Shown piece by piece: positions 15,992 to 39,474 of a stretch of DNA of 40,936 nt. This DNA comes from Actinomycetota bacterium (GTDB lineage Bacteria; Actinomycetota; UBA4738; HRBIN12). A model generated the notes under the pieces. It was not told the origin of the DNA, did not search any database, and saw nothing but the letters and a program-made list of their open reading frames with translations. The stretch is from positions 1 through 40,936 of the forward strand of contig JAJPHY010000145.1 of NCBI GenBank assembly GCA_021325015.1. The letters run 5' to 3'. Both the position numbers and the translations under genes were made by a program. The first letter of the stretch is position 1. Every line of letters starts with the position of its first letter.

Positions 15992-16552
15992 TCAGGGCGG
16001 TGGGATATCCCCCGCCCCCGACCCGGCGTCCGCGAGCGCGCGCTGGAACGCGTCGAACACGTCCCGCCCGTGAACGTCCCGGCCGAGCAGGACGAATCGC
16101 ACCTCCTCCACCTGCGTGCGCGCGCGGCGGACGGCGCCGATCGCAACGGGGGCGGCGAGGTCCACCGGGTACCCGTACACGCCAGTCGAGATCCCGGGGA
16201 ACGCCACGGTTCGGGCGCCGAGCTCGTCGGCCACACGCAGGGACTCGACGTGGCAGCTCGCGAGCAGCTCGGAGGGGTCCTCCCACTCGGAGAACACGGG
16301 GCCCACCGTGTGGATCACCCACCTCGCCGGCAGGTCGCCGGCGGTGGTGGCGACGGCCTTGCCGGTCGGCAGACCCTCCGGGTAGCGGGTGCGGCGGATC
16401 TCCCGGCACGCCGCCAGGATCGCGGGGCCGCCCCGCCGGTGGATCGCCCCGTCGACCCCGCCGCCGCCGAGCAGCGAGGGGTTGGCGGCGTTCACGATCG
16501 CGTCGACCTCCTGCTCGGTGATGTCGCCACGAACGACGACGATGCGGGGCAT
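15992..16552 (-). CDS. Macro-domain ADP-ribose-binding protein
   Basis: This 186-aa protein is a stand-alone macro domain of the YmdB/MacroD type. The ligand-binding features are intact: RGDITEQEVDAIVNAAN, then GGGGVDGAIHRRGG, and the phosphate loop GISTGVYGYP. Members remove acetyl from O-acetyl-ADP-ribose and hydrolyse mono-ADP-ribose on proteins or nucleic acids. The second of two close ATGs (16552) was chosen because MPRIVVVRGDIT is the normal start of the family and a TAGGAT box sits exactly 7 nt before it. It diverges from a PfkB kinase gene with only 47 nt between the start codons. Confidence 0.92.
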   Translation of the reverse strand: MPRIVVVRGDITEQEVDAIVNAANPSLLGGGGVDGAIHRRGGPAILAACREIRRTRYPEGLPTGKAVATTAGDLPARWVIHTVGPVFSEWEDPSELLASCHVESLRVADELGARTVAFPGISTGVYGYPVDLAAPVAIGAVRRARTQVEEVRFVLLGRDVHGRDVFDAFQRALADAGSGAGDIPPP

Positions 16553-33889: not shown

Positions 33890-35200
33890 CTAGCCCGGCA
33901 CCGCCAGAAATCCGTTCGCCTGGTCGGCCGCCTGGTTCAGCGCATCCTGCGGGCTCGCCTTCCCCTGGATCGCCGTGATGAGCGCCTGACCGAGCGCCGC
34001 CGAGATCCGAGGGTACTGCGTGATCTGCGGGCGCGCCTTCAGCACGTTCTCCAGGTTCTGGACGAACACCTCCGTCCCGGGGTACTTCGTGTAGAACTGC
34101 TGGAACTCCGGCATCTGGGCGACCGAGGCCCGGGTCGGCAGGTGGCTCGTGTCGAGGCAGTCCTGCAGGACCTGCTCGGGCGAGGTCATGAAGCTGAGGA
34201 ACTTCCACGCCGCGTCCACGCGCTCCGGCCCGTTGTCGAAGATGACCCAGTTGTCCGGGCCCGCGATCGTCTGGTGGCTGCCGCCGGGGTCGAACGAGGG
34301 CATGACCTGCACCCCGTAGTTCACGTCCGGGAAGCCCGACAGGTCCCACGGTCCAGTGATCACCATCCCGATCTTGCCCGAGTTGAAGAGCTGGGCGTAC
34401 TTGCCCGAGTCCGGCTTGAAGTCCAGGTACATCGAGCCGTCCTCGTAGATGGACCGGAGCATCTCGAGCGCCCGGACGCCGGGCGCCTGGTTGAAGGCGA
34501 CCGTCTTCCCGTCGGGGGAGAGGATGTCGCCCCCGGCCTCCCAGAGCATCGCCTCGTACTGCCACACCATGGTCTCGCTGCCATCGGCGGGAAACACCAG
34601 CCCGAAGACCTTGTTGGCCGGGTCGGTGAGCGCCTTCGCGTCGGCGCGCAGCTCGTCCCAGGTCCAGTCCGGCCCCGGCTCCTGGAGGCCGGCCTTGGCG
34701 AACAGGTCCTTGTTGTAGACCACGGCGAGGTTGTCCACGAGGGCCGGCACCCCGTAGACGCGCCCGTTCACGGTCGCCACCGCGCGCTCGCCGGGGTAGA
34801 AATCGTCCCAGTTGAAGCCGTTCGACTGCACGCGGCTGGTGAGGTCGACGAGCTTGGGGCTCTGCGCGAGCTGCGGCATGTTCGTCCCGTACTGGTACGA
34901 GATGTCGGGCTGCTTGTTGCCCTGGATCGCGACGGTGGCCTTCTGCAGCGCGTAGTCGCTGTTCACGTACTGGAGCTCGATCGTGATGTTCGGGTTCTGC
35001 TTCTCGAACTCCTTGACCATCCGCTCGATCGACAGGTACTCGTAGGACTGGTTCGCGGGCGGCGGGGGCGTGTACCCCATCCACATCACGAGGTGGATCT
35101 GCCCGCCGGAGCCGGTGGCGGTCCCCCCGCCGCCCCCTCCGGTGCATGCCGTGGCGACGAGCGCGAGCACCAGCGGCAGGGCCAGCCAGAAGCGCTTCAT
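33890..35200 (-). CDS. ABC sugar-binding lipoprotein
   Basis: This 436-aa extracellular solute-binding protein (family 1) is anchored by a lipobox (TAC with Cys at residue 19), followed by a glycine-rich linker. Typical parts are EFEKQNPNITIELQYV, YGVPALVDNLAVVYNKDLF and GKIGMVITGPWDLSGF. The ligand is not readable; the aromatic-rich pocket fits an oligosaccharide. The ATG overlaps the SIS gene stop (ATGA) and has GGAGGG ahead. The protein catches glycans, perhaps those set free by the GH114 enzyme. Confidence 0.94.
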   Translation of the reverse strand: MKRFWLALPLVLALVATACTGGGGGGTATGSGGQIHLVMWMGYTPPPPANQSYEYLSIERMVKEFEKQNPNITIELQYVNSDYALQKATVAIQGNKQPDISYQYGTNMPQLAQSPKLVDLTSRVQSNGFNWDDFYPGERAVATVNGRVYGVPALVDNLAVVYNKDLFAKAGLQEPGPDWTWDELRADAKALTDPANKVFGLVFPADGSETMVWQYEAMLWEAGGDILSPDGKTVAFNQAPGVRALEMLRSIYEDGSMYLDFKPDSGKYAQLFNSGKIGMVITGPWDLSGFPDVNYGVQVMPSFDPGGSHQTIAGPDNWVIFDNGPERVDAAWKFLSFMTSPEQVLQDCLDTSHLPTRASVAQMPEFQQFYTKYPGTEVFVQNLENVLKARPQITQYPRISAALGQALITAIQGKASPQDALNQAADQANGFLAVPG

Positions 35201-36099
35201 CGGATCCCTCCAGTCTCGCTCGATGGCGTGAGCACGACGGAACGCGTCAGGTGATCGGGGTGGTCCGGGTCGAGGCCGCGGGCCTCGGCGAGCGCGAGCG
35301 CCACCCGGTGGACGTGCACGAGCTCGGCCATGGGGTCCAGCGTCCCCCGGATCACGGTCGCGCCGGTGGCCGCGACGTCGCGAAGGAGGTCCTCGTCGAG
35401 CTCGCCGAGCGTCCACACGACGGACCCCGGGCCGGCCAGGCTGATCGGCCCGTGCCGGTACTCCATCGCCGGGTACGACTCCGCGAAGGCGCGGGCGGCC
35501 TCCCGAAGCTTCAGGGCTGCCTCGTTCGCGAGGCCGACGGTCCAGCCCGTCCCCAGGAACACGAAGTGAGGGTCCCCCGCGGGCGCCACGCGGAGCGGCT
35601 CCTCGAGCGCCCTCGCCCCCTGCGCGATCGCGACCTCGAGGTCCTGGCCCAGACCGGCGCGGAGGAACGCGAGCGTGCTCGTCGCGAACCGCGTCTGTAC
35701 CACCGAGCGCTCGTCGGCGAACTCGAGCGCGACCGCCTCGTCCGCGGCGTCGGCGATCGGCGTCGCGGGGTCCCCGACGATCGCCAGGCGCCGGCCGGCC
35801 CGAACGGCCTCGAGGAACCGAAGGGTCTCGGTGGTGGTGCCGCTCCTCGAGAGCGCCAGGACGGCGTCGTACCGGCGACCGAGCGGGGCCTCGGATGCCG
35901 GGAAGGCGTCGGTCTCGCCCGCACCCGTCGACTCGCGCAGGCTCGCGTACGCCTGCGCGACGTACAGCGACGTCCCGCAGCCGACGACCGCCACCCGGGC
36001 CCCCGCCCGGGGAAACCAGGGCCGTCGCTCCGCCCCCCGCCGAGCCGCCTCCCGCCAGCACAGCGGCTGGCTGGCGATTTCACGCGCGATTTCGCTCAC
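35197..36099 (-). CDS. SIS-domain sugar isomerase/deaminase, GlmS-C/AgaS-like
   Basis: This 300-aa protein has two SIS domains and no glutaminase domain. It matches the isomerase half of GlmS and the AgaS group. EIASQP at 7-12, GCGTSLYVAQ at 40-49 and SRSGTTTET at 84-92 are the first-domain marks; NEAALKLREAARAFAESYP at 192-210 and EYRHGP at 213-218 carry the catalytic Glu and His region. It should bind an amino-sugar 6-phosphate or ketose 6-phosphate. It is the first gene of the importer operon, with a leaderless GTG start, which ties the importer to amino-sugar use. AgaS acts in galactosamine/N-acetylgalactosamine pathways. Confidence 0.9.
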   Translation of the reverse strand: MSEIAREIASQPLCWREAARRGAERRPWFPRAGARVAVVGCGTSLYVAQAYASLRESTGAGETDAFPASEAPLGRRYDAVLALSRSGTTTETLRFLEAVRAGRRLAIVGDPATPIADAADEAVALEFADERSVVQTRFATSTLAFLRAGLGQDLEVAIAQGARALEEPLRVAPAGDPHFVFLGTGWTVGLANEAALKLREAARAFAESYPAMEYRHGPISLAGPGSVVWTLGELDEDLLRDVAATGATVIRGTLDPMAELVHVHRVALALAEARGLDPDHPDHLTRSVVLTPSSETGGIR

Positions 36100-36107
36100 T
36101 TGGGCCG

Positions 36108-36113
36108 ACTATA
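36108..36113 (-). promoter_or_regulatory. -10 box, leaderless promoter of SIS-importer operon
   Basis: TATAGT on the minus strand ends 8 nt before the GTG at 36099. A weak -35-like TTGCGC (36137-36132) lies 18 nt upstream, inside the left half of the DeoR operator. Confidence 0.55.
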
Positions 36114-36133
36114 GGTCAGAAACACGCAGACGC

Positions 36134-36158
36134 GCAACGGACCTCTATACTCCGTTGC
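36134..36158. promoter_or_regulatory. Inverted-repeat operator for DeoR regulator
   Basis: GCAACGGA (36134-36141) and TCCGTTGC (36151-36158) are an exact 8-bp inverted repeat with 9 nt between. It spans the -10 box of the regulator gene and touches its ATG, and its left half lies at the -35 position of the divergent importer operon. One bound repressor could shut both promoters. Confidence 0.6.
36146..36151 (+). promoter_or_regulatory. -10 box, leaderless promoter of DeoR gene
   Basis: TATACT matches the consensus at 5 of 6 positions and lies 7 nt before the ATG at 36159. No ribosome binding site in the gap. Confidence 0.6.
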
Positions 36159-36914
36159 ATGCGCCAGGCCGAGCGCTTCGGGGTGATCCTCGAGGAGCTG
36201 GCGACCGGCGGCTCGGTGGCGGTCGCCGAGCTCTGCGGGATCCTGGGCGTGTCGGCGGCCACGGTGCGGCGAGACCTCGAGGCCCTCGAGGAGCAGCGCC
36301 TGCTCACCAGGACCCACGGTGGAGCCGTCGCGCAGATGGTCTCCTACGAGCTCCCCCTGCGATACAAGTCGGCGCGCCGCCAGGAGCAGAAGCGGCGCAT
36401 CGGTCAGGAGGCCGCGGCCCGCATCCACGACGGCGCGGTGATCGGCCTGACCGGCGGGACGACGACCACCGAGGTCGCGCGCGCGGTCGCCCACCGGCCG
36501 CTCACCGTGGTGACCAACGCGCTGAACATCGCGAGCGAGCTCGCGATCCGTCCGAACGTCAAGCTCGTCGTGACCGGCGGGGTCGTGCGCTCGGAGTCCT
36601 ACGAGCTGGTTGGGCCGCTCGCCGACGAGACCCTCGCCGACCTGCACCTCGACGTCGCGTTCGTCGGCGCGGACGGGATCACGGCGCGGGACGGGCTCAC
36701 GACCCACCACGAGATCGAGGCCCACACGGACCGGGCGCTCATGGATCGCGCGGCCCGCGTGGTGGTCGTGGCCGACGGCTCCAAGCTCGGACGGGTCGCC
36801 TTCGCCACGATCGCGCCGCTGTCGGCGGTGCACGAGCTGATCACGGACCTCGACGCGGATCCGGAGGAGCTGTCCCGGGTCCGCGAGACGGGGCTGTCCG
36901 TGACGACGGTCTGA
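36159..36914 (+). CDS. DeoR-family transcriptional repressor
   Basis: This 251-aa regulator has a DeoR helix-turn-helix at residues 18-41 (VAELCGILGVSAATVRRDL) and the RTHGGAV link after it. The C-terminal sensor (DeoRC) domain is an isomerase-like fold that binds phosphorylated sugars; GLTGGTTTTEVARAV and FVGADGI are its phosphate-site motifs. It diverges from the SIS-importer operon and likely represses both that operon and itself through the inverted repeat at 36134-36158, with release by a sugar phosphate. It may also control the GH4-GH114 and eight-gene operons, but I see no copy of the repeat there. The MFS gene follows at 13 nt. Confidence 0.94.
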   Translation: MRQAERFGVILEELATGGSVAVAELCGILGVSAATVRRDLEALEEQRLLTRTHGGAVAQMVSYELPLRYKSARRQEQKRRIGQEAAARIHDGAVIGLTGGTTTTEVARAVAHRPLTVVTNALNIASELAIRPNVKLVVTGGVVRSESYELVGPLADETLADLHLDVAFVGADGITARDGLTTHHEIEAHTDRALMDRAARVVVVADGSKLGRVAFATIAPLSAVHELITDLDADPEELSRVRETGLSVTTV

Positions 36915-38166: not shown

Positions 38167-39474
38167 TCAGCCGCGGCGGATGCCCTCGGGCATCAGGTCC
38201 CCGTGGGCCTCGATCAGCTCGTCGCACATCTCGACGATTCGACGGGTTGTGAGCGTCGCCGCCGTGTTCGGATCGAGGAGCGCCGCCTGGTAGACCAGGT
38301 CCCGGCGCTCCTCGAGCGCCGCACGAACGGTGAGCTCGACCACGTTCACGAACGTCCGGTGCAGAGCGAGGAGCTGCGGGGGGATCGTCCCGATCCGCGT
38401 CGGCTGAAGGCCGTTCTTGTCCACGAGGCACGGAACCTCGACGCACGCGTCGTCGGGCAGACCGGCGATCAGGCCGGCGTTGCGGACGTTTGCGTAGACC
38501 TCGCGCGGGGTCCCGGTCGCGATCGAGTGGATGATCTCCGACGCGAGCTCGGAGGTCGGCTGGATGTCGAGCTCCTCGCCGGCGTCCAGGCGCGCCTTGG
38601 TCCGCTCCCAGTCCGCGAGGTTCTCGTCGCTGCGGTACACGTAATCGTCGAGGAGGATGCGGTACCGGTCGATCTCCTCGTCGTGCCGGAGGAACCACGG
38701 CACGTACTCGCTCGAGTGCTCGCTGGACTCGGTGGGGAAGTAGCCGAAGCGCGTGAAGATCTCGACGCGCACGCGGCGCCCGAGCCCTTCGGGGTCGGCC
38801 TCGACGATGGCCCGGAGCCGAGGATAGAGGTCCTCGCCGGTGCGGCGGCTCCGGAACTCCAGGACGAACGCCTGGTGGTTGAACCCCGCCGTTCGGAACG
38901 CGACGTCCTCCTCCCGCTCGCCGACGGTTCGCGCGAGGAACGCGTGCGTGTCGCGGACGGAGTGGCACACGCCGACCACGCGCGCGAACGGCGTCCCCGC
39001 GTACACGCCCCAGGGGACCATGGCCATCGGATTTGCGTAGTTGAGCAGGAGTGCGTCGGGGCTCAGCTCGTGCAGGTCGTTGCCGATCCCGACCATGACC
39101 GGGATCGTGCGCAGCCCCCGGAAGATTCCCCCGATGCCGAGCGTGTCGGCGATGGTCTGCCGCACGCCGTACTTCTTCGGGATCTCGAAGTCGCGCAGGG
39201 TCGCCGCGTACCCCCCCACCTGGATCTCGTTGATCACGAAGTCGGCGCCGGCGAGCGCGGCCCGCCGCTCCGCGTGGGCCTCGACGGTGTGGCCGGCCCC
39301 GGACCGGCGCACGATCGACTCGGCGGCCCGCGCCGCGTAGGTGAGCCGCTCCTCGTCGATGTCGTGCAGCGTGATCCGCACATCGCCCCGCAGCTCCTCG
39401 TACGAGCAGAGGTCGGCGACGACGTTGCGGGTGAACTCGACGCTCCCGGCCCCGATCAGCGCGACGGTGATCAC
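38167..39474 (-). CDS. Glycoside hydrolase family 4 enzyme (second copy)
   Basis: This 435-aa GH4 enzyme has the dinucleotide motif VALIGAGSVEFTR near the start, NYANPM at 145-150, C170 in GVCHS and H200 in GFNHQAF as metal ligands. It resembles the alpha-galactosidase/alpha-glucosidase (MelA/AglA) branch. It is only distantly like the first GH4 enzyme in the window, so the two are not a recent duplication. The start is a GTG at 39474 with a TAGACT box exactly 7 nt before it, which fits a leaderless message. It likely cleaves another glycoside that the importer or MFS protein brings in. Confidence 0.93.
   Translation of the reverse strand: MITVALIGAGSVEFTRNVVADLCSYEELRGDVRITLHDIDEERLTYAARAAESIVRRSGAGHTVEAHAERRAALAGADFVINEIQVGGYAATLRDFEIPKKYGVRQTIADTLGIGGIFRGLRTIPVMVGIGNDLHELSPDALLLNYANPMAMVPWGVYAGTPFARVVGVCHSVRDTHAFLARTVGEREEDVAFRTAGFNHQAFVLEFRSRRTGEDLYPRLRAIVEADPEGLGRRVRVEIFTRFGYFPTESSEHSSEYVPWFLRHDEEIDRYRILLDDYVYRSDENLADWERTKARLDAGEELDIQPTSELASEIIHSIATGTPREVYANVRNAGLIAGLPDDACVEVPCLVDKNGLQPTRIGTIPPQLLALHRTFVNVVELTVRAALEERRDLVYQAALLDPNTAATLTTRRIVEMCDELIEAHGDLMPEGIRRG

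Follow-up and report, generated by a model that had tools for sequence, protein, structure and literature searches.

A candidate direct-repeat operator between divergent SIS and deoR genes in an actinobacterial sugar locus

How two promoters and the site of a repressor might be fitted into 59 nt is the question raised by the gap (positions 36100 to 36158) between the genes for a SIS-domain protein and a DeoR-family regulator. An earlier note on this DNA had placed two back-to-back leaderless promoters in the gap, with TATAGT 8 nt before one start codon and TATACT 7 nt before the other, and had suggested that a single repressor at a perfect 8-bp inverted repeat could block both. The gap length, the boxes and their spacings are all correct to the letter and the coordinate. 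We read the gap as controlling an ordinary divergent sugar operon, in which DeoR would bind direct half-sites on the SIS strand and the inverted repeat would be incidental. This reading, made from sequence comparisons, has in our estimate a probability of roughly 0.68. The features are collected in Table 1; positions are those of the window, by which we mean the whole 40,936-nt stretch of DNA that was analyzed.

Table 1. Features of the SIS/deoR control region
Feature	Positions	Strand	Remarks
SIS-domain sugar-phosphate protein	35197-36099	minus	300 aa; GTG start; Pfam SIS, 8.3e-13
DeoR-family regulator	36159-36914	plus	251 aa; ATG start; Pfam DeoRC, 4.3e-50, and HTH_DeoR, 1.5e-16
SIS -10 box, TATAGT	36113-36108	minus	ends 8 nt before GTG
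SIS -35-like element, TTGCGC	36132-36137	minus	18 nt before -10
deoR -10 box, TATACT	36146-36151	plus	ends 7 nt before ATG
Inverted repeat, GCAACGGA-N9-TCCGTTGC	36134-36158		perfect arms at 36134-36141 and 36151-36158
Distal half-site, CTGCGTGTTT	36120-36129	minus	candidate; weakened form of ATGAGCGTTT
Middle decamer, CTGACCTATA	36110-36119	minus	at most a weak half-site; runs into SIS -10
Proximal half-site, GTGAGCGAAA	36090-36099	minus	candidate; lies on SIS start codon, where transcription presumably starts

The locus and the genomes compared

The regulator carries an N-terminal HTH_DeoR domain and a C-terminal DeoRC sensor domain, both over the Pfam cut-offs. Its best NCBIfam matches were GlpR_Halo (196.5 versus a curated cut-off of 300) and AgaR (195.5 versus a curated cut-off of 260 bits). 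Thus, unlike GlpR and AgaR, it scores under both equivalog cut-offs, and by NCBIfam it is neither a GlpR nor an AgaR equivalog. The SIS protein matched the GlmS, GlmD, and NagB-II models of NCBIfam, in each case far under the cut-off. Its GTG is the first ATG, GTG, or TTG to follow the in-frame stop that lies upstream.

Downstream of the SIS gene lie genes for a solute-binding protein, a permease, and an ATPase of the sugar ABC type, and the SIS gene is presumably the first gene of an operon with this transporter. Downstream of deoR are a major facilitator superfamily (MFS) transporter and then a family-4 glycosidase. In the relatives these neighbor genes are present in part; the solute-binding protein in G008 and G017 is only 25% identical. 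The locus likely serves a sugar-phosphate pathway; the DeoR-family protein is likely the repressor of the locus. Its domain pair and its place in a divergent sugar operon are features that it shares with DeoR-family sugar repressors such as RhaR, AgaR, and GlpR; an operator of short direct repeats, for which a candidate is described below, would be another. In Streptomyces, NagS (SCO4393), a SIS-domain GlcNAc-6P dehydratase, is likewise encoded divergently from a regulator gene, dmdR1 (PMC12680351). The likeness is one of gene arrangement, but the neighbor there is the iron regulator DmdR1, and the main text of that paper has no mention of DeoR. Among the matches listed in our literature search, no title or opening part of an abstract described this SIS/deoR control region.

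The class sample consisted of 27 genomes and is identical to the order-level sample. With a threshold of 1e-15 for the SIS protein and 1e-40 for DeoR, the two were found in 8 and 10 of the 27 genomes, respectively. The divergent pair occurs in eight, which is every genome in which the SIS gene was found; the window's genome (G000) is counted among them. In one of the eight, G019, deoR is truncated by the end of the contig. A scan for related loci with the DeoR protein gave a single locus, L011, whose contig matches that of G006 in length and which is not counted apart from it. In the phylum sample the SIS protein was present at 1e-40 in 28 of 396 genomes, the eight of the class included. Outside the class there were 22 SIS loci, 10 of which have a DeoR relative within the 1.5-kb flank, in 9 cases divergent; 7 of these 9 are from one genus (g41), and the others are in G104 and G212. 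Genomes of one group are related to one another, so the conserved columns reported below are not independent.

Promoters and start codons

Both start codons keep their places among the eight class genomes: all eight have ATG or GTG there for SIS, and all eight likewise for deoR. Upstream of SIS, every genome has TANNNT at the same distance of 8 nt from the start, and its first T, its A, and its final T are invariant; the -35 place reads TTGCGC in four genomes, TTGACC in three, and CTGGCC in one. Upstream of deoR, six genomes have TATACT or TATAGT 6 to 7 nt before the start, and the other two have TATGCT at 10 nt (G019) or 9 nt (G020). On the two strands of the window, a TANNNT ends 6 to 8 nt ahead of 6 of the 1,927 ATG or GTG triplets; each of the 6 begins an open reading frame of 186 to 435 aa, and SIS and deoR are among them. 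The SIS and deoR -10 boxes exceed chance. Because the boxes keep their places (SIS, 8/8; deoR, 6/8), we regard both promoters as conserved and of the leaderless type, and their back-to-back arrangement is well supported by the sequence comparison. Since the boxes sit 7 to 8 nt before the start codons, the SIS and deoR messages are predicted to be leaderless or nearly so.

TANNNT boxes just before the start codon are described as marks of leaderless genes, and genes of this kind are common among Actinobacteria (PMC3160421, PMC3898074). Leaderless genes are reported to average 19.2% of genes over 86 actinobacterial genomes (PMC3160421) and to make up 26% of the genes with a primary start site in Mycobacterium tuberculosis (PMC3898074). 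The SIS and deoR boxes resemble those described in these papers in lying right before the start codon; unlike them, the two promoters here stand back to back.

Other starts in the window look similar. A second back-to-back, leaderless-looking pair lies at 16552 (minus strand) and 16600 (plus strand), 47 nt apart: a Macro-domain protein with TAGGAT 7 nt before its ATG, and a PfkB-family kinase with TAGGCT 6 nt before its GTG. For the family-4 glycosidase gene, at 39474 on the minus strand, the start is again of the leaderless type, with TAGACT 7 nt before GTG, and in G006 and G008 its counterpart has TACACT 6 nt before ATG. Compared by eye, the regions upstream of the glycosidase genes have leaderless-type boxes and no common array of half-sites.

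Inverted and direct repeats in the gap

The inverted repeat is present as described. It encloses most of the deoR -10 box, and 4 of the 8 letters of its left arm (36134 to 36137) overlap the SIS -35 element. An operator for DeoR or for another dimer at this place could block both promoters. Such an operator might be new, having taken over as the distal of the direct half-sites described below decayed, and that half-site is indeed weakened in the window's genome. Arms of at least 8 bp (spacer up to 20) arose in only 0.86% of mononucleotide and 0.70% of dinucleotide shuffles of the gap (5,000 each), and the exact repeat has one copy in the 2.6-Mb genome, as would be the case for a local operator. 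However, an equally good inverted repeat was found in 158 of 3,000 random 59-nt stretches (5%) of the GC-rich window, which as a whole holds 58 such repeats with spacers of 3 to 20. The repeat is therefore beyond chance weakly at best. In addition, the SIS -35 element accounts for half of the left arm, and its place reads TTGCGC in four of the eight genomes. The right arm is not conserved, and for the single-strand DNA fold of the gap as a hairpin, z was -1.68.

What stands of the earlier interpretation is the pair of leaderless-type promoters, upheld by their conservation; what finds no support is the inverted repeat as the operator, which is missing from all seven orthologous gaps, where the longest perfect arms are 4 to 6 bp. 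It is missing even though the letters SAATVRRDLE of DeoR, which from their position in the helix-turn-helix fold we take to be the DNA-recognition helix, are identical in G000, G008, and G013. Because this helix is unchanged, a lineage-specific operator would need to have arisen without change there. Nor did a search of the genome for the repeat, suggested earlier as a way to define a regulon, reveal one: at 3 mismatches there were 10 places, the exact copy and 9 more, versus 12 for the reversed control, and since near matches are no commoner than matches to the reversed pattern, the repeat marks no regulon. Sites of the DeoR-family regulator RhaR, moreover, are described as direct repeats (PMC3870299). 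From its sequence context, the inverted repeat is probably incidental, a product of chance rather than an operator, and we consider its use by DeoR or another dimer unlikely.

A better candidate lies in direct repeats on the SIS strand. The word at the SIS start codon and the word exactly 30 bp upstream agree in 50 of 56 letters over the eight genomes. Other offsets from 7 to 59 gave a mean of 14 matching letters (sd, 6.4), and the runners-up had 36 letters (offset 38, which lands on the -35 box), 26 letters (offset 20), and 23 letters (offset 10). The proximal place reads TGAGCG in all eight genomes. The distal place has exactly TGAGCG in six, TGCGTG in the window's genome, and TGCACG in G017; the loose form TGNNYG-N24-TGNNYG reaches all eight because it admits these last two. 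This loose consensus was picked after the sequences had been viewed, and over the two strands of the window (81,872 positions) it matches 18 times, the match at the SIS start included. Five of the 18 columns of the spacer between -35 and -10 are invariant (T-29, G-28, G-24, G-18, and C-15), as against none of 20 columns outside it, 12 from -50 to -39 and 8 from -8 to -1, the stretch separating the -10 box from the start. In genome searches, CGCTCAY-N23-CGCTCAY had 18 matches in the 27 genomes, 6 of them at the SIS/deoR locus (which leaves out the window's own locus), versus 1 for the reversed control. A pattern of promoter plus half-site had 10 matches in the 27 genomes, 8 at the locus (by construction) and only 2 elsewhere, versus 17 for its reversed control. 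Written in decamers down to the start codon, the SIS strand of G013 reads ATGAGCGTTT CTGGCCTATA GTGACGCCAA ATGAGCGAAA. The middle decamer has T as its second letter in seven genomes and G as its third in all eight, and the full TGNNYG in none; a strict 10-bp pair of TGNNYG at the promoter was also found in none of the eight class genomes.

The direct repeat spans the SIS promoter. In the window's genome it also spans the -35 position of deoR (36123 to 36128, given a 17-nt spacer), with which the distal half-site coincides. Because this half-site is degenerate there (4 of 7 letters agree with the start-codon copy), the candidate site is weakest in the window's own genome. Three of the eight class genomes have longer gaps, of 87 to 88 nt, in which the half-sites fall short of the deoR promoter; that this site also controls deoR is doubtful in those three. 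The proximal copy is also coding, for Met-Ser followed by Glu, Ala, or Asp. Overall, the comparison points to 36090 to 36129 as the likely candidate for the DeoR operator.

The conserved letters might instead belong to the promoter itself, as an extended -10 and a -35, with DeoR acting elsewhere or on another gene. The second TG, which lies near the -10, might belong to an extended promoter. Also in keeping with the lack of an operator, the search with promoter plus half-site gave no second genomic site that would support a regulon. The layout also differs in distant relatives, with 30 bp in the class and 10 bp in g41, and the divergent locus of G212 has neither. Against a purely promoter-based explanation, the distal word repeats the start-codon word at 30 bp, exactly in six of eight genomes and loosely in all eight, and a same-strand direct repeat recurs in g41: TGCTTGA-N3-TGC(TC/GT)GA, on the SIS strand with a 10-bp period, at all seven divergent loci (the second half-site is TGCTCGA, or TGCGTGA in G351). 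We judge the absence of an operator here to be improbable, more so than an operator at the inverted repeat. In G104, whose gap is 281 nt long, 10-bp pairs stand on either strand and say little.

Two further observations concern these relatives. In G017 an extra ATGCTCGATT, which resembles the g41 half-site, lies 21 bp upstream of the distal half-site (SIS-strand -51, locus L025). In the g41 members G368 and G192, SIS is followed not by the ABC transporter but by a gene for a class II ketose-bisphosphate aldolase (L075, 5863 to 6735; L076, 5867 to 6715).

That the distal ATGAGCG is a longer SIS start, 10 codons upstream, rather than part of an operator is very improbable and was rejected: the extension is in frame and open in five of eight genomes and was chosen by an ORF finder in G008, but it meets a stop within 10 codons in the other three (G000, G013, and G020), its translations are unlike one another, and it would read the invariant CTA, which fits the -10 box, as a Leu codon that the SIS genes use 0 of 229 times.

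A proposed switch

With DeoR on direct half-sites as the preferred reading, the locus would work as follows. Two sigma-70-type promoters would fire outward from -10 boxes 7 to 8 nt before the starts, and the position and conservation of the boxes suggest that the messages are leaderless or near-leaderless. DeoR would bind half-sites in direct orientation on the SIS strand, spaced by 30 bp or about three helical turns, whose consensus is (A/G)TGAGCG or, in a looser form, TGNNYG. One would lie at 36120 to 36129 and one at 36090 to 36099, covering the start codon of SIS; a weak third may lie between them. With DeoR in this position, the promoter that serves the SIS gene and the ABC transporter would be blocked. 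Since the distal half-site and the deoR -35 position coincide in the window's genome, DeoR could also damp its own gene. By analogy with the DeoR family, release would come from a sugar phosphate made in the pathway.

A single repressor, DeoR, covering both promoters in the 59-nt gap is plausible, as the earlier note had proposed: because the distal half-site covers the deoR -35, one bound repressor could act on both promoters, through letters other than those of the inverted repeat. Relative to the earlier reading, only the assignment of the operator changes.

The RhaR motifs consist of two imperfect direct repeats with a periodicity of 10 to 11 bp, as described in PMC3870299. The candidate site differs from them in that its strong half-sites are 30 bp apart, and one of them lies on the start codon. 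More tentatively, and at less than even odds in our view, the word (A/G)TGAGCG may serve as transcription start, start codon, and half-site at once, with a twin 30 bp away across genera, so that DeoR would sit on the start codon itself.

In so GC-rich a genome, a perfect 8-bp inverted repeat next to a promoter counts for little as evidence of an operator, and the comparison of a few orthologous gaps gave a better candidate. The SIS/deoR pair is probably an ordinary divergent sugar switch under autoregulation. For this small switch, from a lineage represented here by draft genomes, the candidate operator is a testable site of 40 bp.
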